IMG/VR virus record: IMGVR_UViG_3300008954_003475 | Location: 62,001 to 126,000 of that record | Strand: one strand, 5' to 3' | Length of the DNA stretch: 64,000 nucleotides | Origin: a virus | Shown: positions 17,741 to 45,085 of the stretch, one piece after another | Numbering within the stretch: the stretch's first letter is position 1 | How the letters are laid out: the number at the start of each line of letters is the position of its first letter | The notes under the pieces: generated by a model | What the model was told of the DNA's origin: nothing | Seen by the model: the letters and a program-made list of their open reading frames with translations, nothing else | The model's database searches: none | Made by a program: the position numbers and the translations under genes

Positions 17741-19813
17741 TTAGTCTGTACTCGCGCCCGCACGATTTCTAGTTCCCTGTCCAAGTTCATTACTTATTGT
17801 GGCTGCTGCATTTAATACCGATCCAGCCCTATCTGTCAAATCAATCTCTATAGAAAGCTTAGCAGCAAAAGCATCCGCTATTGCTACAGCCATGGCGTCT
17901 GCCAAGTCCCTCCTACTTGAAAACCCGGCCTGCTCCAAAGCCGATGTTGATGCCTCAGACGCCGCAAGCATAGATGCTCTCTCTATATTGGCAGGTAATT
18001 CATTCATATTTAAATTAAAATTATCAAGATTACCGCTCAAATTAGTAGCAGCCTCAACGATGCCGGCATTATCGGCCGGGCCCTCCATTGTCGCGGCTCG
18101 CGTTAACGTTCCAACATCCCCTCGGGTAGCGCGAGGAGCATTGGCCCCGCCTCCTGGTGCAGATAAAATTTGACTTATAGAGCTATCTCCCTCCAGGCCA
18201 AGACTGTCTAATGCGCTAAGCAGACTATCCTGAAGGCCGCCTGATCCGGCGGCTCCTATTCTTCCCCGAATAGCCTCTCCACCCGCCTGAATACCTCCCG
18301 TTAACTTTCTTCTGCCTGCCGCAGCCACGCCTCTCATTCCTTCCAAAGCCGGTCTTGCCAAAACTGCTAACAAATTAGATTGAATTGCAAGCTGTTGATT
18401 TGCCTTTTCCCATTCATCAAGGGTTTTATCTCTTCCTTCCATCTCATTCTTTAATTGTTTTTCTAATTCTGCCTTGGTATCCACATCTCCAGATCTAGTT
18501 GCATCATCTAATCTTGAAAGCATGTCCAAAACACGAGTTGCTGACTTATCATCACCAACTCCAAATTGATTTTTTAACATCTGCTGCTGTATATAAAACT
18601 GATTCTGAAGCTCTGGAGACTCAGCTGCCTGCTGAACAGTTACGATATCTCCCCCTGTAAACGAAGCAAGGGTATCTTTCATCCCCATTGCCAATTGAGC
18701 CCCTATATCTGATTGTTCTCCAGTCTGTTCAGCCTCCAGCATGGCCGCCTGCATTCCGATTGATGCTCCCAGCACTCCTGATCCGCCACCGCCGCCGATA
18801 TCTAATCCACCTCTTTGAAATACAAGATAAGCATTTGCATAATTCGTTGTTAAATCTGCCAATGCACTAGTCAAAGTCCGCGTTAAATCAACAGCATTTT
18901 CAATTCCAAGCCCCATATCTTGCATTGTTCGTCCAAACCCTTCTAATATTGGTCTTCCAAAATCTGCTGACATTCCAAGCTTTTCGAACCCTTGTACTGC
19001 GCTATTCAATGTAGACGCAACAGTTGATGCTCTTAATCCTGTTTCTTTTGCAACTGCACTAAATCCGCCGATCATCTCTGCAGCTTCTTGGGCGCTTTTT
19101 CCCTGCTTGTTCATAGCTGTATTGAAATATTCAGCACCCTCGGATACAGATACGCCCATGGCAGCAGCTTGAGCTGCAGCAACAGCATAGAGCTTTGTTG
19201 ACCCAATTCCCGTATCAACACTTTGATTTAACTGATCTAATGATAAGCTGGTATTTTTAGTCGCCTCAACAAACCCTGTCATGGCATCTTTTGTAAGATA
19301 CATAGATTGTGCAAATTGACTTGCCGTCTCTGTCCTTAAACCATCTGCAAATCTTTCTGCTTCGCCAATTGTGCTTCCAAACTGCTTTCCTAAGTCAAAA
19401 ATGCCTTTATCATATTCTCTTAACGCTCTGGAGGGCCCGTCAAAAGTTTCTGCCAATAACTTAGCAGATTCAACAGCACCTTCTCCAAGCTCGCCAAGAA
19501 TGCTCGTGCCAACCGACATGGCTTGAAACATAGCATTTGCCGCGCTACCAACCCCTGGAATTTTTGAAGCAAGAGTTCCAAGAAAGCTAAGAGATTTAGA
19601 GCCTGCGTCTGTCATGCCGCTGATTGCCTCTGCAGCCTCCTCAAAGGCTGGAGTCATACCGCCGACCTTACTGCCACCAACTGACGAGCCAAGTTCAAAA
19701 ATACTCTTTACAGAACTATTAAACCCCTCTGTAGTATCCTTGGCCTCTTTCGCAGCCTTACGGTACGCCTCGACCTCAGCACGGAGCTGTGCAACCTCAT
19801 CTTGAACGGACAT
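17741..19813 (-). CDS. Tape measure protein
   Basis: This 690-aa protein is mostly alpha-helical, rich in Ala, Gly and Ser. It has an N-terminal coiled coil (VQDEVAQLRAEVEAYRKAAK) and a hydrophobic glycine-rich stretch near residues 75-110 (LSFLGTLASKIPGVGSAANA). Its position directly after the frameshifted chaperone pair and before baseplate genes is the classical place of the tape measure. At ~0.15 nm per residue, the known relation for siphovirus and myovirus rulers, 690 residues would predict a tail near 100 nm, modest for a phage with proteins this large. The start codon ATG at 19813 has only a distant AGGA (13 nt), so translation may be coupled to the upstream chaperone frame, which stops at 19820. 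No lytic transglycosylase or peptidase domain is visible. Confidence 0.85.
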   Translation of the reverse strand: MSVQDEVAQLRAEVEAYRKAAKEAKDTTEGFNSSVKSIFELGSSVGGSKVGGMTPAFEEAAEAISGMTDAGSKSLSFLGTLASKIPGVGSAANAMFQAMSVGTSILGELGEGAVESAKLLAETFDGPSRALREYDKGIFDLGKQFGSTIGEAERFADGLRTETASQFAQSMYLTKDAMTGFVEATKNTSLSLDQLNQSVDTGIGSTKLYAVAAAQAAAMGVSVSEGAEYFNTAMNKQGKSAQEAAEMIGGFSAVAKETGLRASTVASTLNSAVQGFEKLGMSADFGRPILEGFGRTMQDMGLGIENAVDLTRTLTSALADLTTNYANAYLVFQRGGLDIGGGGGSGVLGASIGMQAAMLEAEQTGEQSDIGAQLAMGMKDTLASFTGGDIVTVQQAAESPELQNQFYIQQQMLKNQFGVGDDKSATRVLDMLSRLDDATRSGDVDTKAELEKQLKNEMEGRDKTLDEWEKANQQLAIQSNLLAVLARPALEGMRGVAAAGRRKLTGGIQAGGEAIRGRIGAAGSGGLQDSLLSALDSLGLEGDSSISQILSAPGGGANAPRATRGDVGTLTRAATMEGPADNAGIVEAATNLSGNLDNFNLNMNELPANIERASMLAASEASTSALEQAGFSSRRDLADAMAVAIADAFAAKLSIEIDLTDRAGSVLNAAATISNELGQGTRNRAGASTD

Positions 19814-19819
19814 TTTGCT

Positions 19820-20757
19820 TTATTTATCCTTTGTTATATTAAATAATCTAGACATATCTTTCGGCATCCTCGTACTCCTAGCGTCTCTAGGCTTGTCTCC
19901 AGTATTACCTTGTAAATTAGTATTTTTATACTTACCCCGAATAGACTTAACCAATTCATCATTCTTTCTAAATTCTTCTTGAAGTATTTGTCTTTCGAAT
20001 TCTTCATCTGAAGCAAATCTGTCATCATCCTTAGAATCTCTAATATTTCTAATTTTTTGCACAGCTTCAGAATTCCAGAACGAAGCCAAATATTCAGCAA
20101 GATCTAGATTATATTCATATTTGTTTTTTTCATCTTCTTGCAACATTTGGGCGTACCAAAGCCATTGAGCTTCGCTGATATTCTCGAAACGCTCATCGTC
20201 AGAAGTGCAACTCCATGTCTTGCATAGAGCCCAGCGGAGCCTGCTGATTGGCTCCTCGGTTATACTTTTAAATCTTCTAAACCAATCTCTTCACTAGAGG
20301 CTGCTACAAGCTTTTCGTATATTTGATATACTCTTTCAACAACAACTGACTGCATGTTAAGAACAACATCCAACCTTCTCTCTGCAACGCCCTCTAACTC
20401 TTCATTTGCACAAAGATCTTCTAAAGGAACTCCATTTACCGACTCAATAACATAAGAAACAGTAACAGGCTTTATGTCTAGCAATCTATCTATCTGATCA
20501 AATTGCATCACTGTTTGCATAATTTCCTTTTGCTGCTTTGTAGATAATGTGGTTATAACAAATTTATATCCAACTATATCCACAACCTCATTTATCTTTC
20601 CTAAAAAAATTAAATTTTTCAAATCATCTAGACCGAGCATTGTTTCATTTGTTTCTTCTTTACGATTGTCGTCTACAACGGGCTCGATCTCTTCTAAGCT
20701 ATCTTCTTCATTACTTGTATCATTAGAACGACTAATCGTGGCGGTTCTCTTTGGCAT
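19820..20757 (-). CDS. Tail assembly chaperone fusion made by -1 frameshift (gpGT-like)
   Basis: After codon K164 (AAA at 20266-20268) of the short chaperone, a -1 slip gives a frame open without any stop to 19822, adding 148 residues for a 312-aa fusion. The added part begins SITEEPISRLRWALC and contains SEAQWLWYAQMLQED, a W/Y-rich motif typical of the second half of tail assembly chaperones. The only ATG-led ORF in this frame starts at 20146, inside this conserved part, and would lose 40 coding residues. The fusion therefore explains the sequence better than a free-standing gene. By analogy with lambda gpG/gpGT, the fusion should recruit tube subunits onto the tape measure encoded immediately downstream. 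Confidence 0.85.
20236..20272 (-). promoter_or_regulatory. Programmed -1 ribosomal frameshift signal
   Basis: Reading the minus strand, the 0-frame codons are GAT TTA AAA GTA TAA. They contain the heptamer T TTA AAA (20272-20266), which matches X XXY YYZ exactly and allows full re-pairing of both tRNAs on TTT AAA after a -1 slip. Ten nucleotides downstream begins a perfect 6-bp GC-rich hairpin, GGAGCC (20255-20250), loop AATCAGCA, GGCTCC (20241-20236). Slippery site, spacer and stem together form the standard signal of tail assembly chaperone genes. The 0-frame stop lies within the spacer at 20262-20260. Confidence 0.88.
20260..20757 (-). CDS. Tail assembly chaperone, short product (gpG-like)
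   Basis: This 165-aa protein has an acidic disordered N-terminus (residues 1-45). A compact domain follows (NLIFLGKINEVVDIVGYKFV, then a helical part with RLLDIKPVTVSYVIESVNGV), with the order and look of myovirus tail assembly chaperones. The ATG at 20757 is preceded by AAGGAGA with optimal spacing. The gene lies between tail tube and tape measure. Near its 3' end a slippery heptamer lets part of the ribosomes slip -1 and make the longer fusion annotated separately. Without the slip, translation ends two codons after the slippery lysine. A terminator upstream (20820-20844) separates it from the tube gene, so it may need its own promoter or limited read-through, consistent with lower expression than tube and sheath. 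Confidence 0.85.
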   Translation of the reverse strand: MPKRTATISRSNDTSNEEDSLEEIEPVVDDNRKEETNETMLGLDDLKNLIFLGKINEVVDIVGYKFVITTLSTKQQKEIMQTVMQFDQIDRLLDIKPVTVSYVIESVNGVPLEDLCANEELEGVAERRLDVVLNMQSVVVERVYQIYEKLVAASSEEIGLEDLKV

Positions 20758-20811
20758 TGAGTCTCCTTTCTTTAGTTATACTAAAAATGCTATATTATTT
20801 TACTTTATATA

Positions 20812-20844
20812 AACAAAAAACACCATCTTTTAAAAAGATGGTGT
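20812..20844 (-). terminator. Intrinsic terminator after the tail tube gene
   Basis: A perfect 12-bp inverted repeat (20820-20831 and 20833-20844, with one base between, so effectively a short AT loop) reads ACACCATCTTTT on either strand. On the minus strand it is followed by TTTTTGTTT. It lies 29 nt after the tail tube stop. It should end the abundant sheath-tube transcript before the weakly needed chaperone and tape measure genes. Confidence 0.8.
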
Positions 20845-20872: not shown

Positions 20873-21508
20873 TCAACTATAAGCTGCCGAAATAAGACCC
20901 GGGAAGTCCAAGGGACCTCTGCGGTCGCCCATATCCGCAGCCTGCTCAACTGCATCCACATCGATCTTGGAGGCATCGACCTCTCTGCTGCCACCCACGC
21001 CTTGGCTGTTTGCAACCGGCTCGTGTGCTCGCTTGGAAGATATGAATTCACAATCAATACCAGCAGATTCTGCAATAGTATAATCAGAAGTTTGATAAGT
21101 CTTTGATAAATTATTGAACCAGCAATTATGATAAGTCGTTATAACCGCATCATCACCGTCTCCTGTAAACTTATCAATAACCACTATATCAAACGGCATT
21201 CTTTGAGCATGAATATTCTTAAAGCCTCTGGCAAAAGATTCAGGCAAAGATAAGCCATCAAATACAATTCTGTTAACCTGCAAAGAGAACTTTGCCGGAG
21301 ACTGAGGAACTAACTCTATTATGCCATCAGTTCCAACTTCCGAAATAGGCTTGTTAGATCTTGACTGAGTTTCTTGAAAAGACTGGATCGCGCCGACTGG
21401 CTCGCCATTGACATAAACAATAACCTGCGTTGATAGACCGGTTCTAGTCTTTGCGCCTGTAATTGTAGCGCTATCAAATAAAGTTGATGTATTTGGATAA
21501 TCTGCCAT
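20873..21508 (-). CDS. Tail tube protein
   Basis: This 211-aa protein has the size and look of contractile tail tube subunits. It begins with a short N-terminal arm, then strands with VIVYVNGEPVGAIQSFQETQ, RSNKPISEVGTDGIIELVPQ and KFSLQVNRIVFDGLSLPESF, then DIVVIDKF. This is the gp19/tube pattern of a chain addressing a common background strand, an interaction site and a beta-barrel sheet. It follows the sheath gene by 12 nt, as in most myoviruses, and is followed by a strong terminator, consistent with high expression. The last ~45 residues (after SSKRAHEPVANSQ) are polar and probably lie outside the barrel. Confidence 0.88.
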   Translation of the reverse strand: MADYPNTSTLFDSATITGAKTRTGLSTQVIVYVNGEPVGAIQSFQETQSRSNKPISEVGTDGIIELVPQSPAKFSLQVNRIVFDGLSLPESFARGFKNIHAQRMPFDIVVIDKFTGDGDDAVITTYHNCWFNNLSKTYQTSDYTIAESAGIDCEFISSKRAHEPVANSQGVGGSREVDASKIDVDAVEQAADMGDRRGPLDFPGLISAAYS

Positions 21509-21520
21509 TATTTTCTCCTA

Positions 21521-24500
21521 TTATATGACCCCAACTTCTATATCTATAAAGATGTAATTTATAGGATAAGCTGGAGAGAACTGTAAAAATACGTTAATCT
21601 GTCTTGGGTCAACCTTATCTTGTTCAACCCTAACATTCTTATACTGAGTGACCAACCCTTGAGCAATTAGTGCCGACATAATCGAACTAACCCTAGCTCC
21701 AACAAGGTTGTTTGTATCTCCGCTTTGTACTCCGCCTATAAATCCCTTAAGAGAGTTTCTCAAAACTCGTTTAACGGTGTCTCTAATGAAGATAATAGAG
21801 ATTTCTTCATCCTCAACAAATCCTGATTGACTTGTTGTTCTGCCTGCCAAAACCTTTCCGCCTCCGGTTACTGGCTCAACAACTGTTGCGCCGACGTTAC
21901 CAAGGCCATTTAAAATGACAGGTCTAAAAATCTTGTCTCTGGTTAATGCAAATCCAGATAATGTCTTGTATGTTAACGGAAGAGCTACATTCTGTCTTGC
22001 CGATAGCCACCCAGAAGCTGCTGCGGCCATATAAAACCCGTGTAGATTAACATTTGTTCCATTTACATTTCTAACAATCGTATCTGGGAACATATAAACA
22101 CATCTGTTGCTCGTATAGTTATCACTTAGCTTGAAGTTTACAAGGTCTTCCACATTATCATCAAGAACCTCTTCTGGATCATCTCCCTGAATTCCTTCAA
22201 GAATTCCGATATCTTCGACCGCAACCTCTTCTGTTCCGATTAAAGCAGCGGCTGAAACCCCCATTTGCGCTCCGATAAATGCCACCCTCTCCATCCTGTT
22301 TGCAACAGAACTCATGTTCTCACAGTGATTAACTGTTGCTCTAAAGATTGAAGAAATAGCCTGAGTTGGAAGAGGTACGATGATTTGAGCATCCGCAGCC
22401 TCAAGCGCCTCAAGCGCGTTAAACCAATTTGTATCAAAATAATCTGAATCATTTTCGTCTACATAAGAAATCTTAAGACCATCACCATCCTGAAGAACGC
22501 CGCTAGTTACAAGATCTTCATGAAGAAGAAGACAAGCATCATCAGGGGTGCTAGAAGGATCCTTGATGAAGAAGTTAATATCTTCATATTCAGCCGCAAG
22601 AGTTATAGCCTCACCATCGCTGGCCCTCACAACATATGCTTTTGAATCATCTGTTACTGCGCTTATTGTAAGCTCGACCTCATCAACTCCATCATTATCC
22701 AGCCCCAGCGCTCCAGAAACCTGCTCTTTACTTGTTAAAGCCGTTCTGCTATCCCAAGCTTCTCCGGCATTTTCCATGCTTGTAACGACAATTGTCATCC
22801 CAACATGTTCTCCGTCAAAATCAAATTCTGGAGTTGTGAAGTAAAATCCATCATCATCTTCGGCAATTTCGCCTTCGATTCCATTTCCAACAATGTCCTC
22901 ATCTATATTTACAACCGTATATGAGAAAGCATTATCAGAACTTCCTATCCAATTATATTGCTGGATATCTGATTCAAGCTGAGAGTTATAAAAGTCTACT
23001 TTATTCGGGAAAACCTGTGTTTCTTCGCCATCTCTTACAATAAAAATGTTAACCCTAGAGTCTGCATCAGGTCGGCCATTTCTAAGGCCTGTAATTGGTC
23101 TTGAGATAACGAACCTAAGATCATCTACTTCGCAACCAGATCCACAATCTGGAAATCCACCGACTCCCAAAGAATCTCTTTCTTCTAATAGAGTTGCGGT
23201 TGTTCTTCTTGGGATTGCAGGCTTGCATTGAAGCGCAAGAATTGCTGGCGCCCCATTCTCCATGGCCATCTGTGACCCAAGAGAAAGAGTGTTGTCTTCG
23301 CTTGGGTTTCCGTGCTTCGTAAATAATGAATTAGCACCTGTAAAAAACTCTGGATCATTAAGATCACCTTCGAAAACATATTTTGCCTCTAAGTTATCGC
23401 CCAAAGCTAAAGCTCTTGAGTTTACATCAATATAGAACTTATCCCCCACCTCGAATGGAACCGCACCCTCTTCTATTCCTAATAGTAAAATTCCATTATT
23501 TTCTAACATATGGAATGTAAGGCCTGTGTCTGATAAACCACCGGTACCCTCTAAGTCTGGAAGGCCTGTACTTTCATCGTCAAGAGCATGAAGTCTAAGC
23601 CTTCTGGTTGAAGTAATTGCGCTAACAGTATACCTGCCTCCATTGGAGTTCGTTCCTGCGCACATCACCACAGTCTTTCCTACATCGCCGCTTGTAAAGC
23701 TGCCCTCAGTAGTTGGCGCTCCAGTTGTAGTATTGTGAAGAACATCCTCATCATCTATCAACAGGTTTGTCGCCCGGATCTCCCAATCCATATCAGTCCA
23801 ATCGGCGGGGCCAAGACTGTCTGTAGTAAGAGTTATTGTTGTGTCTGTTCCATCATATTCTAAATCTTCTATTTCATATCCTGCATAACCATCTATGCAT
23901 AAAAAGTCTCCCGCCATGGCCTGACCCTGAGTAACAATATCGGCACCAGCAACAACAAAAGTATCAGTCGTAGATTCTGTTTCATCCCCACTCTTTAGAG
24001 TTGCAGAGCCCTGGGGGAATGCAAGTCCGGAGACATCTCCGTAAGCTACAACAAACCCATCTGTGCATTCGTCTGAAGTTCCAGAGATTGCTCCATCTCC
24101 ACTGGTGTAATATGAACTGTGAAAGGCCATCGGGCTTCCTGCGGAATCATAAATCTGTCCAGATTCAGACCCTGTAACGCTAAACGTGGCCAGCCCAGGA
24201 ATGGGATCGCCATTTGAATCTCTTACGACACTTACGCATCTTACGGTCCACCTCTCTGCCGGAGCAGAGTCATCAAGTACATCCAGGGTAATAAACGGAT
24301 CACAACTTGCATCTTCAATGATTGTTCCCGTTCCTATATTCATACTTGCTGCAGAATATCCCTTTCCGTCCTGATCGCCAATAGAGGCTCCCTGCAGCTC
24401 AATGCATCCTGTTGCAGGATCTAATCTAAAGTCAAAGGCTGAATCAAAACCATTTGCATCAATCTCATCTTCCTTTCCAAAAAGAAGAGTTCCGTTTAAT

Positions 24501-24763
24501 CGAAGCTCTGTTCTTCCGCTAACGACAGGAATGTTTTGAAGCTCAAAAAAGCGCCCATCACCGCTACCGGTGGGGCTGCAATCTGCCGCTCCATCCTCTC
24601 CGCCGCCTGCTGCGGCCTGAACAATGGTCTCCTCCCTGAGGCCTTCGCCCATAACACAAACTATTCTTATTCCGCCTGGGATAGAGACCCCACGGGAAAG
24701 AACCCTATCTCTTGCAAATGCTCCAGGCTGAATGAAACCTGAAATGCCGGGTATATTAGCCAT
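21521..24763 (-). CDS. Tail sheath protein, enlarged (1080 aa)
   Basis: The N-terminus (IPGISGFIQPGAFARDRVLS) and especially the last ~250 residues (YKTLSGFALTRDKIFRPVIL, then a helix-strand part with FIRDTVKRVLRNSLKGFIGG and INVFLQFSPAYPINYIFIDI) match the conserved core of contractile sheath proteins. Family members usually have about 400-700 residues, so about 400-600 residues between the two core parts are extra. They are acidic, beta-rich and repetitive in character (many DDE, TTD and GDxG runs) and probably decorate the tail surface. GGAGG lies six bases before the ATG at 24763. The tube gene follows at 12 nt. Confidence is high for sheath, low for the role of the inserts. Confidence 0.9.
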   Translation of the reverse strand: MANIPGISGFIQPGAFARDRVLSRGVSIPGGIRIVCVMGEGLREETIVQAAAGGGEDGAADCSPTGSGDGRFFELQNIPVVSGRTELRLNGTLLFGKEDEIDANGFDSAFDFRLDPATGCIELQGASIGDQDGKGYSAASMNIGTGTIIEDASCDPFITLDVLDDSAPAERWTVRCVSVVRDSNGDPIPGLATFSVTGSESGQIYDSAGSPMAFHSSYYTSGDGAISGTSDECTDGFVVAYGDVSGLAFPQGSATLKSGDETESTTDTFVVAGADIVTQGQAMAGDFLCIDGYAGYEIEDLEYDGTDTTITLTTDSLGPADWTDMDWEIRATNLLIDDEDVLHNTTTGAPTTEGSFTSGDVGKTVVMCAGTNSNGGRYTVSAITSTRRLRLHALDDESTGLPDLEGTGGLSDTGLTFHMLENNGILLLGIEEGAVPFEVGDKFYIDVNSRALALGDNLEAKYVFEGDLNDPEFFTGANSLFTKHGNPSEDNTLSLGSQMAMENGAPAILALQCKPAIPRRTTATLLEERDSLGVGGFPDCGSGCEVDDLRFVISRPITGLRNGRPDADSRVNIFIVRDGEETQVFPNKVDFYNSQLESDIQQYNWIGSSDNAFSYTVVNIDEDIVGNGIEGEIAEDDDGFYFTTPEFDFDGEHVGMTIVVTSMENAGEAWDSRTALTSKEQVSGALGLDNDGVDEVELTISAVTDDSKAYVVRASDGEAITLAAEYEDINFFIKDPSSTPDDACLLLHEDLVTSGVLQDGDGLKISYVDENDSDYFDTNWFNALEALEAADAQIIVPLPTQAISSIFRATVNHCENMSSVANRMERVAFIGAQMGVSAAALIGTEEVAVEDIGILEGIQGDDPEEVLDDNVEDLVNFKLSDNYTSNRCVYMFPDTIVRNVNGTNVNLHGFYMAAAASGWLSARQNVALPLTYKTLSGFALTRDKIFRPVILNGLGNVGATVVEPVTGGGKVLAGRTTSQSGFVEDEEISIIFIRDTVKRVLRNSLKGFIGGVQSGDTNNLVGARVSSIMSALIAQGLVTQYKNVRVEQDKVDPRQINVFLQFSPAYPINYIFIDIEVGVI

Positions 24764-26470: not shown

Positions 26471-29400
26471 CTAGTAATCATCATCTGATACGTTATTCGC
26501 CTCTACGTACCCATAGAATGTAGAGTTGTTCAGTCCAGACTCAGCCCCAATACCATAAGGGCCAGTCGTTTGGTCTGTTACATTTATTGAAATGTTTCCA
26601 TTTATAATAACATTATTAACGTAGCTGCCGCCATCCCAATAAATAGCCCCGTCGCCCCAGCCTATAGAATCAAAAAAACAATCTTTTACAATCAAATTGC
26701 CGAAATATAGCCCAGAACCACGGCCCTGCCTAACAGCCCACTCCCATGGCTCAGCGTCATTTACACTAGTCCGTGTTCCATTGTCAATTCCTATACAATT
26801 TATTTTAGAAAGCCTAAAAGTAGCCTCTGGAGAGCTGGTTGAGCTTCCAGTGCTAGATATTTCTTGAGCTACTTCAACAATAGAGCCTCGGTCTGTAAAG
26901 GATTCATGCTGTTTATATGTAAAACTTTCAAGCGTTACTCCATAAACTATATCCTCAGAAGAAGATCTGTTTCCGGGCTCTCCTCCTCCTATATAAATTA
27001 ACACACTTTGATCAGCAGAACTTCCACCGACCAGCAGCTCTCCGCTTCGCTGTATTATAGTGTTTGGCCCAGCGCCGCTAAGTATCAAGTCAAAATCAAT
27101 AATAATTGTTTCAGAAACATTATATGTCCCTTCTTTTAGAAAAATATTTGGGGTTCCCATTTTTGGAAATAATTTTGAAAACATTCTCGCATAATCTACG
27201 GCAGCCTTAATATCTGTAAAGTGTCCAAACCTTTGATCATTGGCAACCGTTATATCACCAATAAGCTTATGGTCAATATGATCTATAAACAATCTAAGAT
27301 CTGTTACCGTTGTTGTCTCCCCAGAAGTATCTACTTCCACATAAGCAAGATTTGCTACGGCCTGACCCGCAAATGGCGACACATACTCTGCACCAGCACC
27401 TGCTCGATCAACCTCGTTTTCAACAATAATACATCCACTTCCATCCAAAGCTATATAAAAATTATCTGTATCATTATAATCCTCAACACCCCCATCGTAT
27501 TTGTAAACAAGATCTGTAACTCCCAAGTATTCAAACCTTACACCGTTTACTACTGCAACTCCTGGGTTTATAGTTATCTTGCATGTACTGCTATCCACAT
27601 ATGTAATGCTATCTATATCTGTAGCTCGAATTACTCCGCTTGTTCTTAATTCATTTCTTGGACCCTGTATGTATCTTTCAAGAAATGCTTCTCCAATGAT
27701 TGTATCATCAACAGTTCCTGTGATTCTTTTGTTCCTTACAGTCGGAACTGCTCCACCGGTTTCAGATGCAGATCCTAAAATAAATCCAAAATCAGCCGAA
27801 TAAACCCCTCTGCACAAATGCAACACGCTACTTGGAAGATCATCATAGCCTATTAACACCGATGTCTGTTCTGAAAGTGGCGGGCCTGATGCTAAAACCT
27901 CCAAAACTATATACGACATCTTATCTCTGGAAAAAACCTTATATTCTCCGGTTGCACCCACAAAGGTCTCCTCCCCCTCACTCCCCGGCGTCACATCATA
28001 AGGGGGCGTTGTAGACTCTCCAACCGTGGTTCCCAAATAAGCCATACCATCGGTTGTTACTGTTACAACATAAATATCATCCGCTTGAATAAAGCCTCCT
28101 GACACATCTGAAACAATGGCATAAAATCCGGCTGTTTCAATATGCCTTACAGTGTCTAGTTTCTTTTTATAAAAAATATCTTTATTTTGATCAACGAATA
28201 CATCAAACATAATAAGACCATCGGTCTCAAGAAACTCCATCTCTCCGATTGGGGCTGTACACCTTATTACAAAAACTGAAGAATCATCCGAAATCTCCCC
28301 TTGTAATGCTGGAGTTCCAGATGTAGGATCCAATATTATTGTATTTGCAGATACATTACGAATTCTGAAAGTACCATCGTCTCCAGATTCTGTAGAGCCG
28401 TCAATTACACATAAATCACCAGTTCTAATATCATCTGCTATAAAGTCTGTAGATACAGAGCTCAAATACATTGTTCCTGCAGCAATAAGTATAGAGTCAT
28501 CTCCATACTTCTTTATCTTTCCAAAATCTTCTAAAAGTCTTCCATTAATATGATAAGCGTTTCCCCCAGAGCCTTCAACCTCTCTGTCCAAAAGATATGA
28601 TAGCCCCAAGACTTCTGCCGCATCAGTTGTTGCTGCGACCAATTTGATTGTTCTGTTTTTAGAATCTTCTGCAAAGCTTGGCAAAACGTGCGTAATTGCC
28701 AACTCATAACATCTTAATGATCTTATCTTATATGCAAAAATGTTTAAGTTATTAGCTACAGCATAATCATTTATTTTAAAAACAATTGTATCAAGATTTT
28801 GAATATCAAAGTCTTCATCATAAACTGTTATCTCAACTGTATCTCCTCCGTCTATTTCCAAGGCAATCATATCAGCCACGCCATCTTCAAGACTCGTTGG
28901 CTTTATTCCGGACGATATAATTGTTGCTGCATTCGGAAGGGCCACTTGAACATCTGGCGTATTAGATTTATCGTATCTAGGTCTAACGCTACAGTTTAAT
29001 CCATTCTCATTATAATTTACAAATTGATTTTTAGTTATCTTAGCCGTCGTTCCTTCTTCAATCTCATTTACTGGACCGCCAAATATCATTACATAATCTA
29101 CATCACCTTCGTCGGTCAATGCTACAGATGCAATTAAATATTCTGTATTATCTTCTTCAAACGAAGAATCTACAACGGAAAGTATATCAAAAGGCTTTGG
29201 GGCGGTCGTTGGTGTTGGCGGGGTTGAAAAAGATACTTTAGATGTGCTTTTATCATTTGGACCATCATAAATTATTTCGCTGGCCTCTGTCAGCAGCGTG
29301 CCTATCTCATTCCCCTCCCAGGCATTATAGGAAGAACCCGTTCTTATTATTCCATTCGAATTGAAGTTAAGATTTGAATTTCTGAGCCCCTCTCCTTCCA

Positions 29401-30094
29401 ATTCTGCTAAATCATCAATGGCTCCTTGAACACTTGATGAGCTAATTAAATCTGAAGTTTCTTCATTGCTATAATATATCTGTCCCGCAATATGAGAATT
29501 ATTATTTGCGCCTATACTTTCACCGGTATAGTTCATATGAGCATTATAAATTTCTTCCAAAATCTCCTGAAGAGTTCCCTCTCCAAGAGCCATCGTTGCA
29601 TCGGAAGACTCCTCAGCCTCCGCTGCTTCTACGGCTATTGCTTTGGCATAATGTCTATTTATAGCATCATCATGAACGTGTGCCGAAACAATCGCATTAA
29701 GCTCTTCAAGGGTTATAATAAACGCATCTAATCTGTTGTCCAAAATAGAAATTTGATCTTGCAGCAAATGAGTTGGAAAGTTTAATCGTAATTTGCTTTC
29801 ATTAATTGCCGCGACTTTTGATACGTCTGTATCTGTAACAGGGCCTGAAAGAACATTCGATCTATCCAAAGCTTCTTTTAATATATTTCCATTTTCATCC
29901 AAAGCATTTGACAGCCTTGCCGAAACGGTATTTCCGGTTGCTCCTTGCGGATTTATACCCAGAGCCTTTTCAATATTAAATATTGCAGACCTAAGACTAT
30001 TAAACACATCAGAGCCTATCTCGGTAATATTATCTCTAATTACCGGGATCTCTACTGATGTATCTAATTCATTTGGATATTTTGATTTTGGCAC
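26471..30094 (-). CDS. Giant tail adhesin with beta-helix C-terminus (paralogue of the next gene upstream)
   Basis: This is a 1207-aa protein. The first ~160 residues (KYPNELDTSVEIPVIRDNIT, INPQGATGNTVSARL, then NESKLRLNFPTHLLQDQISI) are clearly paralogous to those of the adjacent 1970-aa adhesin and are probably the virion-attachment domain. The middle is made of beta domains with repeated wording, such as TGDLCVIDGSTESGDDGTF. From about residue 953 to the end is a pectate-lyase-like right-handed beta-helix (AAVDYARMFSKLFPKM, PNIFLKEGTYNVSETIIIDF, ILSGAGPNTIIQ), the typical fold of phage tailspikes. Unlike the paralogue it ends inside or just after the helix and lacks the conserved C-terminal domain. 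No catalytic residues can be assigned by eye. Confidence 0.8.
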   Translation of the reverse strand: MPKSKYPNELDTSVEIPVIRDNITEIGSDVFNSLRSAIFNIEKALGINPQGATGNTVSARLSNALDENGNILKEALDRSNVLSGPVTDTDVSKVAAINESKLRLNFPTHLLQDQISILDNRLDAFIITLEELNAIVSAHVHDDAINRHYAKAIAVEAAEAEESSDATMALGEGTLQEILEEIYNAHMNYTGESIGANNNSHIAGQIYYSNEETSDLISSSSVQGAIDDLAELEGEGLRNSNLNFNSNGIIRTGSSYNAWEGNEIGTLLTEASEIIYDGPNDKSTSKVSFSTPPTPTTAPKPFDILSVVDSSFEEDNTEYLIASVALTDEGDVDYVMIFGGPVNEIEEGTTAKITKNQFVNYNENGLNCSVRPRYDKSNTPDVQVALPNAATIISSGIKPTSLEDGVADMIALEIDGGDTVEITVYDEDFDIQNLDTIVFKINDYAVANNLNIFAYKIRSLRCYELAITHVLPSFAEDSKNRTIKLVAATTDAAEVLGLSYLLDREVEGSGGNAYHINGRLLEDFGKIKKYGDDSILIAAGTMYLSSVSTDFIADDIRTGDLCVIDGSTESGDDGTFRIRNVSANTIILDPTSGTPALQGEISDDSSVFVIRCTAPIGEMEFLETDGLIMFDVFVDQNKDIFYKKKLDTVRHIETAGFYAIVSDVSGGFIQADDIYVVTVTTDGMAYLGTTVGESTTPPYDVTPGSEGEETFVGATGEYKVFSRDKMSYIVLEVLASGPPLSEQTSVLIGYDDLPSSVLHLCRGVYSADFGFILGSASETGGAVPTVRNKRITGTVDDTIIGEAFLERYIQGPRNELRTSGVIRATDIDSITYVDSSTCKITINPGVAVVNGVRFEYLGVTDLVYKYDGGVEDYNDTDNFYIALDGSGCIIVENEVDRAGAGAEYVSPFAGQAVANLAYVEVDTSGETTTVTDLRLFIDHIDHKLIGDITVANDQRFGHFTDIKAAVDYARMFSKLFPKMGTPNIFLKEGTYNVSETIIIDFDLILSGAGPNTIIQRSGELLVGGSSADQSVLIYIGGGEPGNRSSSEDIVYGVTLESFTYKQHESFTDRGSIVEVAQEISSTGSSTSSPEATFRLSKINCIGIDNGTRTSVNDAEPWEWAVRQGRGSGLYFGNLIVKDCFFDSIGWGDGAIYWDGGSYVNNVIINGNISINVTDQTTGPYGIGAESGLNNSTFYGYVEANNVSDDDY

Positions 30095-30103
30095 GTTATC
30101 CTC

Positions 30104-33100
30104 TTAACCGCAATGGTATGTGCATCCAACAAATGCTTTTTTATAGGTTTGACCATCAAACTCAAATTCAACACATTCATAATTATTACTATTTAAATCA
30201 AAATTACAATCTTGGGTAATCTTTGCCACAGTATAGTTGTGAAGCAAATCATCATCTTGCCTCATACCATAACCAGGAATTTCGCAAGTTGTTATGTAAT
30301 CTCCATTCTCCAAATCACCATTTATATTACAAATCCAAACAGCACCTTCTCCTAGTGAGTTAATAATCAGCCTTTCATCATCCTCTTTTTTTGCATAAGA
30401 AGATACGAATGCTCCTATCGAATAAGATCTTGTATCACTGCCTTCATCCTCCATATCAGATATTACTCCAAAAGCTTTTTTATCATTTCTTACACTTGAT
30501 AGCCCAACCTCTGGCAATGATTCATTTATGCTAGGCTTTTTTAATCCATCTAGATTACTATAAAAACCCTTTGAAATAACTATCAGCCCTATGTTGTCCT
30601 TGTCGTGCAAGGCTTTATCCCCCAGAGATCTATGCTGACCTGTAAAGTTAAGCTCGTCTACATTATTTGCCGGATTTAAATATGCTCGAACACCATCGAA
30701 GGAACCTCCATAACTATTTTTATGATGAAAGGCTAATACGTTTGAGTTTCCATCGTATGAAGATCTCACGTGTATTGTCCATCTAACATCTGCCGTACCG
30801 GCAAGGATTCCGTCATCACCGCCATGGGTTGCATACTGATGAATCCTTATTCCTGAGTTGCTATCATCGTCAGATTGAAACACATCAAATCGCCCATTCT
30901 TCATAGCCATTCTAAATTTTTCATCAAAATTAGTGCCAAGCAGACCAGTGTTAAATGGATCTTCATCTACATTATATGGCCCAAAAGCTAAATTACTATA
31001 GGTATCTGACGATGAAGACCAATATGTTGCTATATCTCCATACATAGATGTAGAGCCAGCCTTTATAAAAAGACATGGTCCCTCCGCCTGGCTGCCTGCA
31101 ACATTTATTACCCCAACCTGATGACCTGGACTGCTTACTGATAAAGAATCATATATAGCAACATTTCCGGTTCTATCTATATACAAGGCCTTGCCATAGT
31201 CGGTCCACAAGCTCAAAGTATCATCGTCTGCAGCGGATCCAATCAATGTTTCAACGCCACTGCGGATAGCGAAACTAACATCGTCTATAGTAATGGATCC
31301 ACCAACATTGAGATCGCCTGTGTTCACGGAACCACTAACATTCAACCTGTGGCCATCAGGTGTCGTGGTCCCTATCGCAACGCCACCACTGCCATTGGCA
31401 CACATCATAAGATCACTATCTCCAGAGTTTTGAAGATGCATTGAAGAAGAAGCGGAACCATCTCTGGCCAATATCTCATTGGCATCGAATGCTAGATGAT
31501 CACCGCTTGTATCTCCTACTATTAAGATTCCGGTACTATTTGACTCACTTATTTCGTCCGAACCTGTGGTGCCTCCATAAACATATAACGGCACTTGAGA
31601 ATCGGCCACCCCTATCCCAACTCCATCTTCAGTTATGGTCAAACTATCACTTAAAGATCTTCTGTTGATCTTGAATACCGCCGAATCAGTTGTAGAGCTA
31701 CTTCTTGTTCCCATTACAAATTGGCCATTGGAGGCAGGCGTGTCTCCATCCCACTCGATAAAGCCACCATGGTTAAACACGCCCGCATCTCCGGAGCAAT
31801 CCTCAACAAACTCAATTCTTGATGAACAGTTTCCTCCCCCAGCATCGGGCGATCCCAGTCTAAACACCACATCATCACCAATGAGGTGAAGATTTGGCTG
31901 AGTTGTTGATGGACTTGAGTTTTCAATCGTTATACTTTCTGCTATAATATCTGTTGCTGCAATATTTGTAACAGCAAGCGTTTCAATGGGAAGAAGCCTA
32001 TCTGACCATTCATGATTGCCGTCATAGTCGATCTTGCCCGATCCTGAGCCATCATTATCAGCACATATGTTTCCAACTATTTGTATATTATTTATTGCAG
32101 GACAATCATCAAAGTCAAAAATATTTTCTCCAGCAACATACGAGCCAACCAGCGGATCGACATAAGCACAATGAATAAGATAATTGTCCATCCCATCCAC
32201 CACCATATCCGTTCCACCGGGAGCGATTCCTGACCCTCTAGAAACATTATTTGATATATTTATATTTCTAATATTTGCTGCAGCAAAATCATCAAACTTT
32301 ATTGCTGAATTTAAAAATTGACAATTTGTTATAGAGATATTTCCTGCGCCATGATCTGTCGCCTCTTCCAGCCTGTCATGAGCCTCAACTATAATTCCGC
32401 CATAGCTAATGTCGGCAGCACCGTCAGCGCCCTCATCACACTCTGATGAGTCAAAAATAACATTATCAATGTTAACTCCCCAATTTAGCTTATAGCCTTC
32501 CGAATCTGAAAGATGATTTGGGTCTTTAATAGATGGATCTATAATATTTATAGAAGAAAGTCTCATTCTGAAATTGCTTAAATTCACAAAGCCATTATTT
32601 ATTACATCCATGTCCATATCTGGCACAGAAGAGCTTATAGTCGGATCAAGGCCATATGCATCATCATCAATGGCCATTCCAGGTCCTGCAATTTTTATAC
32701 CAGACCAATTATCGGCGCTTCTTGAGACCAGCCTAGTATCTAGATCGTTAGAGTCATCATATATGTCGGCTATATCTATAACTGTCGAATATCCTTCTCC
32801 AACTATATTTACGGGAAAGTTTATCCATATACCTTGATTTAAATGTCTTGCATTAAGAGTTTTGTTATCGGTTGTTGTTCCAGAGTCCTCTGCGTGATCA
32901 ACAATGACCCTATGAGTTCCAGACTTCAGATGAATCGTCGGAACACCAGCGCTTGAATATGCTTCAGAAAATCTTTTCGCATACTTGAGAGCTTCATTGA
33001 TTGTTAAAAAGTGTCCCATACCTCTTTGCGGAGATACGGTAATTGAATTAAGAATTCTTAAGTCTAATTGGTCAATAAATAATCTCAAATCAGTTGCAAA

Positions 33101-36016
33101 AGGAGGATCTCCAATAGTGGTGTCAGAACCATCTCCATTGTATTCTACAGTACATAAGACGCAATAATCATACGGATCAAATGGTGAGGAACAAACCCCG
33201 CTTGCTCCAGAGGAGTTTGAACTAGCAAAAACAATCTCTCCCCACTGGTTCATGGCTACAAAAAATTTATCTGTATCGGGAGAAGGCCCCCAAGGAGAGT
33301 TGATTCCTGTTATCAAATTATTTCTTGCGCTTATTTCAAATCTTTTTCCCTTCACATAACAAACGCCACCCGCTATATCTATAACATAATGTCCGTTTAC
33401 ATTTATTGACTCATGATCATCCAAGTCAGTATAGGGCGTTAATAAGTCCGTGCTAGAGTCAAGAACCGATGTTGTCACCTCAAGCCCGCTGACTACACCA
33501 TTTGATCTAGTTTCTCGAATAGGCCTTTGCTGCATTGTGTATATGGCATCAGTTCCAAGATCCTTGTGTCCAACATTTCCTCTGCGCAACTTTGAAAAAA
33601 GCCTAGGATAATCAGTTCCAGCCCCGGAAACTCTTGAGGATCCAGCTTCATAATGCGATCTTGCAATGAGAAGATTTTGCCCATCATTTACCTCCTCAAA
33701 CCCATAAAGACCTATAGTGGTAGCAACTCCAGACCCAGCGGCTCCAATGTCATCATCTATCTGTGCCGATATAGCAGAAGAATCCTGAATAAACAATGTA
33801 AGCTTTATATCATACTTTCCAGAAGATACCTCTATATAAGAGTTTGAAAGACTGCCCAGAATAACTGGATCGCCTCCATCTAAGGCTATTAAGTCAACTC
33901 CATCTACAGTCCTCTCTAACGTTAGCCCCTCTCCAGATGCTGCCGAATACACAGAGACATCCCCAGCAAAGTCTACTACGGCCACTACGTTCGAAACAGT
34001 ATCTCCATCCCCCGTGTTGGATAAGGCTCCATATATTAATCTTCTATTATAAAAAACACTTCTATCATAATCCATAAAAACATCTATAATTGCAACATAT
34101 GAAGATCCGTCTATCTCGCTAAATGCCATATCTGCCAATGATAATGAATTTTTAAATATATAAAACTCTGTACTTTCATCAGAAGATCCTGTCCAAGCCC
34201 CGCCTGACAGTTGGTTTGAATCTACACCAACCTTGGACCCTGACTCATGAACGCTTGTTACGAGATAAGTTCCATCGTCAGCGCTAGATTCCGCAATGAC
34301 CAAAAGGTCTCCTACACATATCGCTTCTTCTAAAAAGTTTACAGAAGTTGACGATATCTGTGACGATCCAGACAAAAGCTCCAACCCGGTCTCTGCCAAT
34401 TTTGTACCAAGACCGTTATAAGCTTTGCCCTGTATATAATATCTTGTTCCAAGACCAGCATCTATAACTGAGTCTTCATAATCTGATAAGCCCATAGAGT
34501 CAAGGGCGTCATCGGATCCTCTTGAAACTTTTAATGTATAAGAATTTGTAGCAGAACTTTCTATAGAATGAACAAATGCAATTTCAGAAGGCTTATTCTC
34601 ATCATAATCTATTCTGTATGCATAAACGCTATAACCTCCAGCCGAGAATTGTTCATTTAGCTTTTTAAGAATCGTATCAACCGTTTGTACTGTAGCTTCT
34701 CCATCATAAACATCCAAATCAATGGCGGTTCCTTCGTCAATTGTTATAGAAAAATATCTATTTCCTTCGGACCCTATTCCGTTTATTTCCGAAGGCCTTA
34801 TTCCGTTTGTTATAATTGCTGCGGCTTCTGGGTTTGCTATTTGCAAAGTATCTGCATTAGAAGTTGGAATGCCAGATTCGTCATAGGCCTCATACTCTCT
34901 AACTGACACAAGCAATCCGCCAAGATTTGCTTCTTTGTTTGTGTTTTGATAAATTTTTGCCGTAGTATCAACCTCTGCATCTTCTCCGAATCTTGCAAAA
35001 ACATATACTCCTGTTATTTTGGTCTCATCATCAGGGTCGTATACAACTTCGCTAATCTGATATTCTGCAGTTCCAGACTCATCTGTTATTTGTAATATAT
35101 CAGACTTTTTAATGCTTATTTCAGGCACATCTTGTGCTGTATTAAAACCAATATGATGGCCCTGAGGCGACTCATAAGATATGCTTGCATAATAGGTTAT
35201 GCCAGTACTATCCAGTATCAGCTGTCCTACGTCATCCTCAAGAGAGGATACAAGCTGACCAGTTCTTGCTACTCCATTATCATGCTGATGATTCTGGTGA
35301 TCATCAAGCTGACCAACGGCATGTGCCAAGATATCCTCTATAGCGCCCTGAACATCATCTGAATCTATATAGGCAGAAACATCTGTTGTATCAAAAAATA
35401 ACTGATCAGCTTCGTGTGATCTGTTTGATATCGATATATCACTTCCATCATAATTTATATGCGATTGAAAAACTGACTCAAAAGCATCTTGCGATGTTGT
35501 AATATCTAAAGATGTAATTCCAGTTGAAGAAGAGGTATTATCAATAGCCTCTATAGTAATTGCCTGCCCCTTGTGTCTATTTGTAGCAGAAGTATGCACA
35601 TGGGCATTAAACAAAACTGCAAGCTCATCTATTGTAGCAAGCATGGCATCTACTTGATTCATCAATTGAGATACTTCGTCTTGCAATAATTGCGTTGGAT
35701 AATTTAAACGAAGCTTGCTTTCATTAATAGCGGCAGTTTTAGAAACATCACTATCAACAATTGGGCCACTTAAAACGTTCGCCCTATCAAGGGCTTCTTT
35801 TAATATATTTCCATTGCCATCTATAGCCTTATTGAGTCTGTCCGAAACAGTATTCCCAACAGCTCCTTGCGGATTAATACCCAACGTTCTTTCTATCTGA
35901 AATAAAGCAGATCTTATACTATTGAGGACATCAGAGCCAACCTCTATGATGTTGTCTCTAACTGCCGGTATTTCAATAGATGTATCTAATTCATTTGGAT
36001 ATTTTGACTTTGGCAT
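30104..36016 (-). CDS. Giant tailspike/adhesin with conserved C-terminal domain (1970 aa)
   Basis: The N-terminal ~160 residues match the neighbouring 1207-aa adhesin. Middle domains are beta-rich, and a beta-helix-type block starts near residue 998 (INEALKYAKRFSEAYSSAGV, PTIHLKSGTHRVIV). Fibre-like pieces follow at ~1400-1750 (DGVGIGV, SGSVNTGDLNVGGSITIDDV). The last ~180 residues (FTGQHRSLG, IGLIVISKGFY, INSLGEGAVWICNING, GDYITTCEIPGYGMRQDDDL, NYTVAKITQDCNF) form a domain I recall from tail fibres of environmental phages and from proteins of large algal viruses. It may be an intramolecular chaperone / autoproteolytic type (Peptidase_G2-like). The ATG at 36016 is preceded by AGGAAGAG. The virion role is secure, the C-terminal assignment tentative. 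Confidence 0.8.
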   Translation of the reverse strand: MPKSKYPNELDTSIEIPAVRDNIIEVGSDVLNSIRSALFQIERTLGINPQGAVGNTVSDRLNKAIDGNGNILKEALDRANVLSGPIVDSDVSKTAAINESKLRLNYPTQLLQDEVSQLMNQVDAMLATIDELAVLFNAHVHTSATNRHKGQAITIEAIDNTSSSTGITSLDITTSQDAFESVFQSHINYDGSDISISNRSHEADQLFFDTTDVSAYIDSDDVQGAIEDILAHAVGQLDDHQNHQHDNGVARTGQLVSSLEDDVGQLILDSTGITYYASISYESPQGHHIGFNTAQDVPEISIKKSDILQITDESGTAEYQISEVVYDPDDETKITGVYVFARFGEDAEVDTTAKIYQNTNKEANLGGLLVSVREYEAYDESGIPTSNADTLQIANPEAAAIITNGIRPSEINGIGSEGNRYFSITIDEGTAIDLDVYDGEATVQTVDTILKKLNEQFSAGGYSVYAYRIDYDENKPSEIAFVHSIESSATNSYTLKVSRGSDDALDSMGLSDYEDSVIDAGLGTRYYIQGKAYNGLGTKLAETGLELLSGSSQISSTSVNFLEEAICVGDLLVIAESSADDGTYLVTSVHESGSKVGVDSNQLSGGAWTGSSDESTEFYIFKNSLSLADMAFSEIDGSSYVAIIDVFMDYDRSVFYNRRLIYGALSNTGDGDTVSNVVAVVDFAGDVSVYSAASGEGLTLERTVDGVDLIALDGGDPVILGSLSNSYIEVSSGKYDIKLTLFIQDSSAISAQIDDDIGAAGSGVATTIGLYGFEEVNDGQNLLIARSHYEAGSSRVSGAGTDYPRLFSKLRRGNVGHKDLGTDAIYTMQQRPIRETRSNGVVSGLEVTTSVLDSSTDLLTPYTDLDDHESINVNGHYVIDIAGGVCYVKGKRFEISARNNLITGINSPWGPSPDTDKFFVAMNQWGEIVFASSNSSGASGVCSSPFDPYDYCVLCTVEYNGDGSDTTIGDPPFATDLRLFIDQLDLRILNSITVSPQRGMGHFLTINEALKYAKRFSEAYSSAGVPTIHLKSGTHRVIVDHAEDSGTTTDNKTLNARHLNQGIWINFPVNIVGEGYSTVIDIADIYDDSNDLDTRLVSRSADNWSGIKIAGPGMAIDDDAYGLDPTISSSVPDMDMDVINNGFVNLSNFRMRLSSINIIDPSIKDPNHLSDSEGYKLNWGVNIDNVIFDSSECDEGADGAADISYGGIIVEAHDRLEEATDHGAGNISITNCQFLNSAIKFDDFAAANIRNINISNNVSRGSGIAPGGTDMVVDGMDNYLIHCAYVDPLVGSYVAGENIFDFDDCPAINNIQIVGNICADNDGSGSGKIDYDGNHEWSDRLLPIETLAVTNIAATDIIAESITIENSSPSTTQPNLHLIGDDVVFRLGSPDAGGGNCSSRIEFVEDCSGDAGVFNHGGFIEWDGDTPASNGQFVMGTRSSSTTDSAVFKINRRSLSDSLTITEDGVGIGVADSQVPLYVYGGTTGSDEISESNSTGILIVGDTSGDHLAFDANEILARDGSASSSMHLQNSGDSDLMMCANGSGGVAIGTTTPDGHRLNVSGSVNTGDLNVGGSITIDDVSFAIRSGVETLIGSAADDDTLSLWTDYGKALYIDRTGNVAIYDSLSVSSPGHQVGVINVAGSQAEGPCLFIKAGSTSMYGDIATYWSSSSDTYSNLAFGPYNVDEDPFNTGLLGTNFDEKFRMAMKNGRFDVFQSDDDSNSGIRIHQYATHGGDDGILAGTADVRWTIHVRSSYDGNSNVLAFHHKNSYGGSFDGVRAYLNPANNVDELNFTGQHRSLGDKALHDKDNIGLIVISKGFYSNLDGLKKPSINESLPEVGLSSVRNDKKAFGVISDMEDEGSDTRSYSIGAFVSSYAKKEDDERLIINSLGEGAVWICNINGDLENGDYITTCEIPGYGMRQDDDLLHNYTVAKITQDCNFDLNSNNYECVEFEFDGQTYKKAFVGCTYHCG

Positions 36017-36089
36017 TAACTCTTCCTATAATTTTAACTTTCATATTCATTAAAATAAAATTAGTATTAGAAACTTGACAGATAATTGA

Positions 36090-45022: not shown

Positions 45023-45049
45023 TCTAGATCTCCAAAATAGTTAATTTAA

Positions 45050-45085
45050 TTAGTATATAAAATGCTGGGGGCCGAAGCCCCCAGC
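45050..45085 (-). terminator. Intrinsic terminator with UUCG loop after the 539-aa fibre gene
   Basis: A perfect 9-bp GC-rich stem, GCTGGGGGC (45064-45072) and GCCCCCAGC (45077-45085), closes a loop that reads TTCG on the minus strand, giving the very stable C(UUCG)G tetraloop. It is followed on that strand by ATTTTATATAC. It lies 53 nt past the fibre stop at 45139. Termination is clearly aimed at the minus strand. Confidence 0.88.

Follow-up and report, generated by a model that had tools for sequence, protein, structure and literature searches.

Two overlapping ORFs in the tail gene module of this virus almost certainly constitute, judging from their sequence and that of their relatives, the chaperone operon of a contractile-tailed phage, expressed through a programmed −1 frameshift of the lambda G/GT type. 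The window, i.e., the whole stretch of DNA that was analyzed (64,000 nucleotides, 40% G+C), comprises bases 62001-126000 of a virus record of 221,878 bp. The sequence-only reading had proposed a tail assembly chaperone frameshift at this position, and that proposal is supported by synteny, the −1 overlap, the heptamer, the stem, selection, the comparison of 55 loci and homology to phage G.

The site is located on the minus strand, as are all of the genes described below. ORF1 (20260-20757), taken from the ORF list, encodes the short, gpG-like form of 165 amino acids, which corresponds to the N-terminal part of the tail assembly chaperone. Its 3′ end reads GAT TTA AAA GTA TAA and includes the slippery heptamer TTTAAAA (20266-20272), in the phase T_TTA_AAA, together with the zero-frame stop TAA (20260-20262). 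A spacer of 10 nt (20256-20265), which overlaps this stop, leads from the heptamer to a stem-loop (20236-20255) composed of GGAGCC (20255-20250), an 8-nt loop and GGCTCC (20241-20236). The heptamer, the spacer and the perfect 6-bp hairpin were all found as the sequence-only reading had described them; its placement of the heptamer two codons before the first stop holds if AAA is counted, while otherwise only GTA lies between heptamer and stop. The −1 frame opens just after an upstream TGA at 20293 and, as had also been claimed, continues through 148 codons to a stop at 19822-19820. The portion following the slip (ORF2; 19820-20266, 148 codons and the stop) is gpT-like, as determined from the frame read-out and from homology to gp182 of phage G. 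Because TTTAAAA occurs 46 times on the two strands of the window, the motif alone means little, and what counts as evidence is the phase in which it is read, its position ahead of the stop and its conservation.

The gene neighbourhood is that of a contractile-tail module, and the virus is thus a contractile-tailed phage. The order of genes on the minus strand is tail sheath (21521-24763; PHROG tail sheath profile, E=2e-16), tail tube (20873-21508; PHROG_985, E=3e-12), ORF1, ORF2 and then a gene of 690 amino acids (17741-19813) at the tape measure position. The tube protein is homologous to gp180 of phage G and to proteins of Staphylococcus phages that are annotated as tail tube proteins. The 690-residue candidate had no match of its own in the profile search and is called a tape measure gene by its position and by synteny with phage G; with this assignment, two overlapping ORFs sit between the tube and tape measure genes. 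Since the GTDB genomes that were searched gave no relative, no host was inferred.

The assignment of ORF1 and ORF2 to the tail assembly chaperones is supported by the phage G homology of both halves, by PHROG profiles and by a fold match to HK97 gp14. In pairwise BLASTP comparisons, ORF1 is 26% identical to phage G gp181 (2e-11), and the ORF2 part is 28% identical to the C-terminal end of gp182 (4e-8). The “tail assembly chaperone” profile PHROG_2792 was matched by 17 of 22 ORF1 proteins of the family (best E 8.5e-7), while the window ORF1 alone reached 0.0041 against the chaperone profiles PHROG_2792/2992; the Pfam search returned no chaperone family for either ORF. The AlphaFold2 model of ORF1 (pLDDT 71, with a low-confidence N-terminus) found its best viral fold match in gp181 (E 4e-7), and fold matches to the gp181/gp182 pair were obtained at E 4e-7 and 2e-6. 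Its best match among solved structures was HK97 gp14 (PDB 2ob9; probability 0.96, TM 0.61 by target), a likeness at the level of the fold which, at E 0.14 and 18% identity, falls short of proven homology. The chaperones of actinobacterial myophages, e.g., Rhodococcus phage Finch, also matched the ORF1 fold (E 2e-6), and their sheath is related as well. The model of ORF2 is helical (pLDDT 69), with gp182 as its best viral match (E 1e-3).

The closest described counterpart is Bacillus phage G (JN638751), in which the same order is observed: sheath gp178, the tube homologue gp180, gp181/gp182 and the tapemeasure protein gp183. Its gp181 and gp182 likewise overlap in the −1 frame with a heptamer at the stop, and are annotated as a tail assembly chaperone with a joined CDS. 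That annotation was based on the frameshift signature, and neither protein was detected by mass spectrometry (PMC8570332). The two systems nevertheless differ in several respects: the phage G heptamer is AAAAAAC rather than TTTAAAA, the 15 codons following its slip fold weakly (−5.9 kcal/mol), its ORF1 lacks the first ∼40 residues, and its ORF2 is longer.

Conservation of the site was analyzed in two overlapping sets of viral loci. A search of viral contigs with the ORF1 protein gave only near-identical copies, and the tail tube gene and then an ORF2 alignment were therefore used as bait. The tube-bait set consisted of 30 loci, a few of them identical. In all 27 loci for which both ORFs were found by the script, ORF2 was read in the −1 frame, with an in-frame heptamer 0-3 nt ahead of the ORF1 stop; of the others, the sequences of L018 and L033 break off too soon, and L032 escaped the motif filter, although by eye it reads AAAAAAG TAG. 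The ORF2-bait set contained 80 loci, 55 of which were readable after removal of repeats (L069 is cut off upstream). All of these 55 non-redundant loci show the −1 overlap of ORF2 with ORF1, and all have an in-frame X_XXY_YYZ heptamer (TTTAAAA, AAAAAAA, AAAAAAC or AAAAAAG) placed 0-3 nt before the ORF1 stop. Relatives lacking both the heptamer and the −1 open frame were looked for among them, and none was observed. The comparison with homologous genes called for by the sequence-only reading thus found the heptamer throughout and the stem in nearly all of the loci. Among 12 close relatives, the heptamer codons exhibited zero synonymous variation and the surroundings of the slip 0.02 per same-residue pair, versus 0.41 over the gene pair as a whole. 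The site itself varies in nature: the heptamer may be moved by one codon, the spacer measures 10 nt (as in the window) or about 7 nt (as in most of the relatives with an A6N heptamer), and two types of stem occur.

The stem-loop was examined by several approaches. The 81-nt region folds more stably than its dinucleotide shuffles (z = −2.7). In a synonymous-recoding test, in which the −1-frame protein was kept unchanged, codons were drawn anew and the stability of the region after the slip was compared, 23 sequences gave a mean z of −3.4 after the slip versus −0.3 for control windows in ORF2; in the window alone the result is borderline (z −2.0, p 0.05), and the support is therefore family-wide. 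Over 41 distinct aligned sequences, 96% of the cells were paired, as opposed to at most 55% when the arms were slid. A stable stem within 5-10 nt of the heptamer is thus conserved as a structure, albeit with few two-sided changes, which were seen at two of the six pairs (G-C to U-A and C-G to U-A) and in three cells. Covariation within each close clade is uninformative, as the stems hardly vary, and the wider set of 41 sequences provides a modest signal. In L051, L057 and L063 the outer two pairs are lost and a bulged variant is retained, while the structures following the slip are weak in L086, L087 and L094. A scan of the window against Rfam gave no match. A pseudoknot, formed by CAGC of the loop with a GCTG that directly follows the stem, was considered as well and rejected: no linker would be available to cross the 6-bp stem, and L013, L016 and L019 cannot form the pairing, which is hence not conserved.

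Both arms of the stem are doubly constrained, in that they also encode conserved residues (EP..SRLRW), and this, together with the sparse covariation, would be expected if the hairpin, lying beside a functional heptamer without stimulating it, merely terminated transcription (intrinsic terminator) or arose by coincidence from the coding sequence. We consider this unlikely, since the hairpin is not followed by a T-run and its stability exceeds that of synonymous recodings across the family. Moreover, in a second clade a different, longer and unrelated stem, AAAGCTCC...GGGAGCTTT, occupies about the same distance from the heptamer.

Selection indicates that the −1 frame is translated from the slip onward. 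As the sequence-only reading had noted, an ORF caller begins the second frame at ATG 20146 and misses 40 residues and the fusion; this ATG is indeed the first in the −1 frame, 40 codons past the slip, with no in-frame ATG, GTG or TTG earlier. The start-less stretch (20147-20266) is the most conserved core of ORF2 (RLRWxLCKxW..DD..F), and the invariant residues W12, L14, C15, K16 and W18 all fall within the part that would be dropped. For the 39 codons that follow the slip, the 12 close relatives showed 585, 364 and 1094 differences at positions 1, 2 and 3 of the −1 frame, respectively; dN was 0.04-0.28, and dS, where it could be estimated, was at least 0.6 (three pairs were saturated). The resulting dN/dS of about 0.07-0.25, again where dS could be estimated, indicates purifying selection, and no comparable pattern was seen in the other two frames over these 39 codons. 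Because this stretch is the most conserved part of ORF2 and is under purifying selection in the −1 frame, the 40 start-less codons are taken to be translated. The predicted fusion measures 312 amino acids, whereas the ORF from 20146 would be a truncated protein of 108.

These data bear directly on the view that ORF2 is a separate gene and that no frameshift occurs. Its start would be ATG 20146, as listed by the ORF caller, or else a non-standard codon near the AGGAG of the stem (20257-20253), which resembles a ribosome binding site. Such a gene would leave the selected, most conserved 40 codons without a conventional start; in addition, the sequence preceding 20146, gctttggtacgccca, carries no Shine-Dalgarno motif. 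Among the relatives an early ORF2 start is often lacking too, the first one occurring up to 102 codons in, and still the heptamer is kept in all of them. A separately initiated ORF2 is accordingly very improbable.

A change of frame brought about by the polymerase, through transcriptional slippage on an A/T run rather than on the ribosome, appears equally remote for the window. Many relatives do carry runs of A7 or A6 at the site, but in the window the site is just TTTAAAA, whose longest run is four, and runs of four or fewer are too short for the usual polymerase slippage. The X_XXY_YYZ phase and a stem at 7-10 nt fit the slippage of tandem tRNAs instead. In the A7 relatives, slippage of the polymerase may still occur. 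That a single gene was split by a sequencing or assembly error, single-base frame breaks being common in assemblies, is refuted by the same frame relation and a heptamer in 55 non-redundant contigs from many samples, and by the same frame relation in the isolate phage G, so that the chance of it is practically nil.

The programmed −1 frameshift can be pictured as follows, where the slippage itself, its efficiency, the ratio of the two products and their roles in assembly are what we infer. Most ribosomes would complete ORF1 and produce the short chaperone of 165 amino acids. A minority would be held by the GGAGCC stem at U_UUA_AAA, where the two tRNAs would re-pair one base upstream (UUA-AAA to UUU-AAA), and these slipped ribosomes would yield the fusion of 312 residues, ...GLEDLK-SITEEPISRLRW.... 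The arrangement resembles that of lambda G/GT, reportedly described by Xu et al. in 2004, in its place between the tube and tape measure genes and in its short form and −1 fusion. The lambda heptamer is GGGAAAG, unlike the TTTAAAA found here, and lambda is a siphovirus whereas the tail in this case is contractile; the likeness drawn here is one of gene layout. In lambda, the short chaperone made by most ribosomes binds the tape measure protein, while a few ribosomes slip back one base and produce a fusion with an additional domain that binds the tube protein (PMC5009743). By this analogy, coating of the tape measure protein would fall to the short form, and recruitment of tail tube subunits to the C-terminal extension of the fusion.

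Tail assembly chaperones made by frameshifting belong to the textbook examples, and thousands of phages carry such an annotation; in the SEA-PHAGES genomes, 2397 joined chaperones were counted (PMC10885494). The present site, from uncultured phages of a phage G-like lineage, is an ordinary new example without a new mechanism, and leaves knowledge of these chaperones unchanged. Its value lies in a corrected gene model, the fusion in place of the truncated ORF, for large uncultured phages that are misread by standard annotation. In addition, a single frameshift site is available in at least 55 natural versions, which vary in heptamer, spacer and stem and are useful for testing the determinants of slippage.

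Another conserved feature was detected inside ORF2 and outside the frameshift signal. The synonymous-variation scan and the locus counts defined a stretch, AAATACTAATTTA (19913-19925), which lies 112-118 codons past the slip and lacks synonymous variation in the 12 close relatives; from there the tape measure gene is about 100 nt downstream. Of the 47 loci that were checked, 31 carry the octamer ATACTAAT 77-113 nt ahead of the ORF2 stop, despite variation in the residues around it. A Thr-Asn pair is encoded by ACTAAT in 33 of 36 cases inside ORF2 versus 11 of 55 elsewhere in the same loci, a contrast that is biased upward by the choice of loci for the octamer and is uncorrected for kinship. 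Over the window the octamer is present at chance level (4 found, 3.8 expected). The string ATACTAATT appears at two other places in the window (36060-36067 and 45049-45056, both on the minus strand), each in a short intergenic gap, 51 and 34 nt upstream of the genes that start at 36016 and 45022, respectively; the copy preceding the latter gene directly follows a GC-rich hairpin.

The simplest guess is that the AAATACTAATTTA stretch may serve the tape measure gene as a promoter or as a processing signal. A T4-like late promoter was considered and rejected, as the 13 TATAAATA sites of the window do not include this stretch and L009 does not retain the TATA part. The nucleotide-conserved AATACTAAT element upstream of the tape measure gene may be a less familiar finding than the frameshift. 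As a tentative proposal, to which we give something like one chance in three, the chaperone pair of this lineage of large uncultured myophages would carry two cis signals: a frameshift cassette, whose heptamer and stem types were exchanged between clades with the spacing roughly kept, and AATACTAAT, acting as a promoter or processing signal that sets the dosage of the tape measure gene apart from that of the chaperone.

Several further observations concern the region between the tail tube gene and ORF1. A terminator-like hairpin, CACCATCTTTT/AAAAGATGGTG, followed by T6, is located at about 20815-20843 and suggests that the chaperone pair has its own transcript. In most relatives (seen in L007-L028) a TTTAGTATAAT-like string occurs ∼15-25 nt before the ATG of ORF1; its counterpart in the window is TAGTATAACT, at about 20770-20785, and the string looks like a −10 promoter element. 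In two loci, L030 and L031, an ORF of ∼209 codons with paired CxxC motifs (zinc-finger/HNH endonuclease-like) is inserted between the tube and chaperone genes, and is perhaps a homing endonuclease.

Farther upstream in the window, two adjacent large ORFs on the minus strand, 26471-30094 (1207 amino acids) and 30104-36016 (1970 amino acids), have near-identical beginnings, MPKSKYPNELDTS.EIP..RDNI.E.GSDV.NS.RSA, which suggests a tandem duplication of a structural gene.
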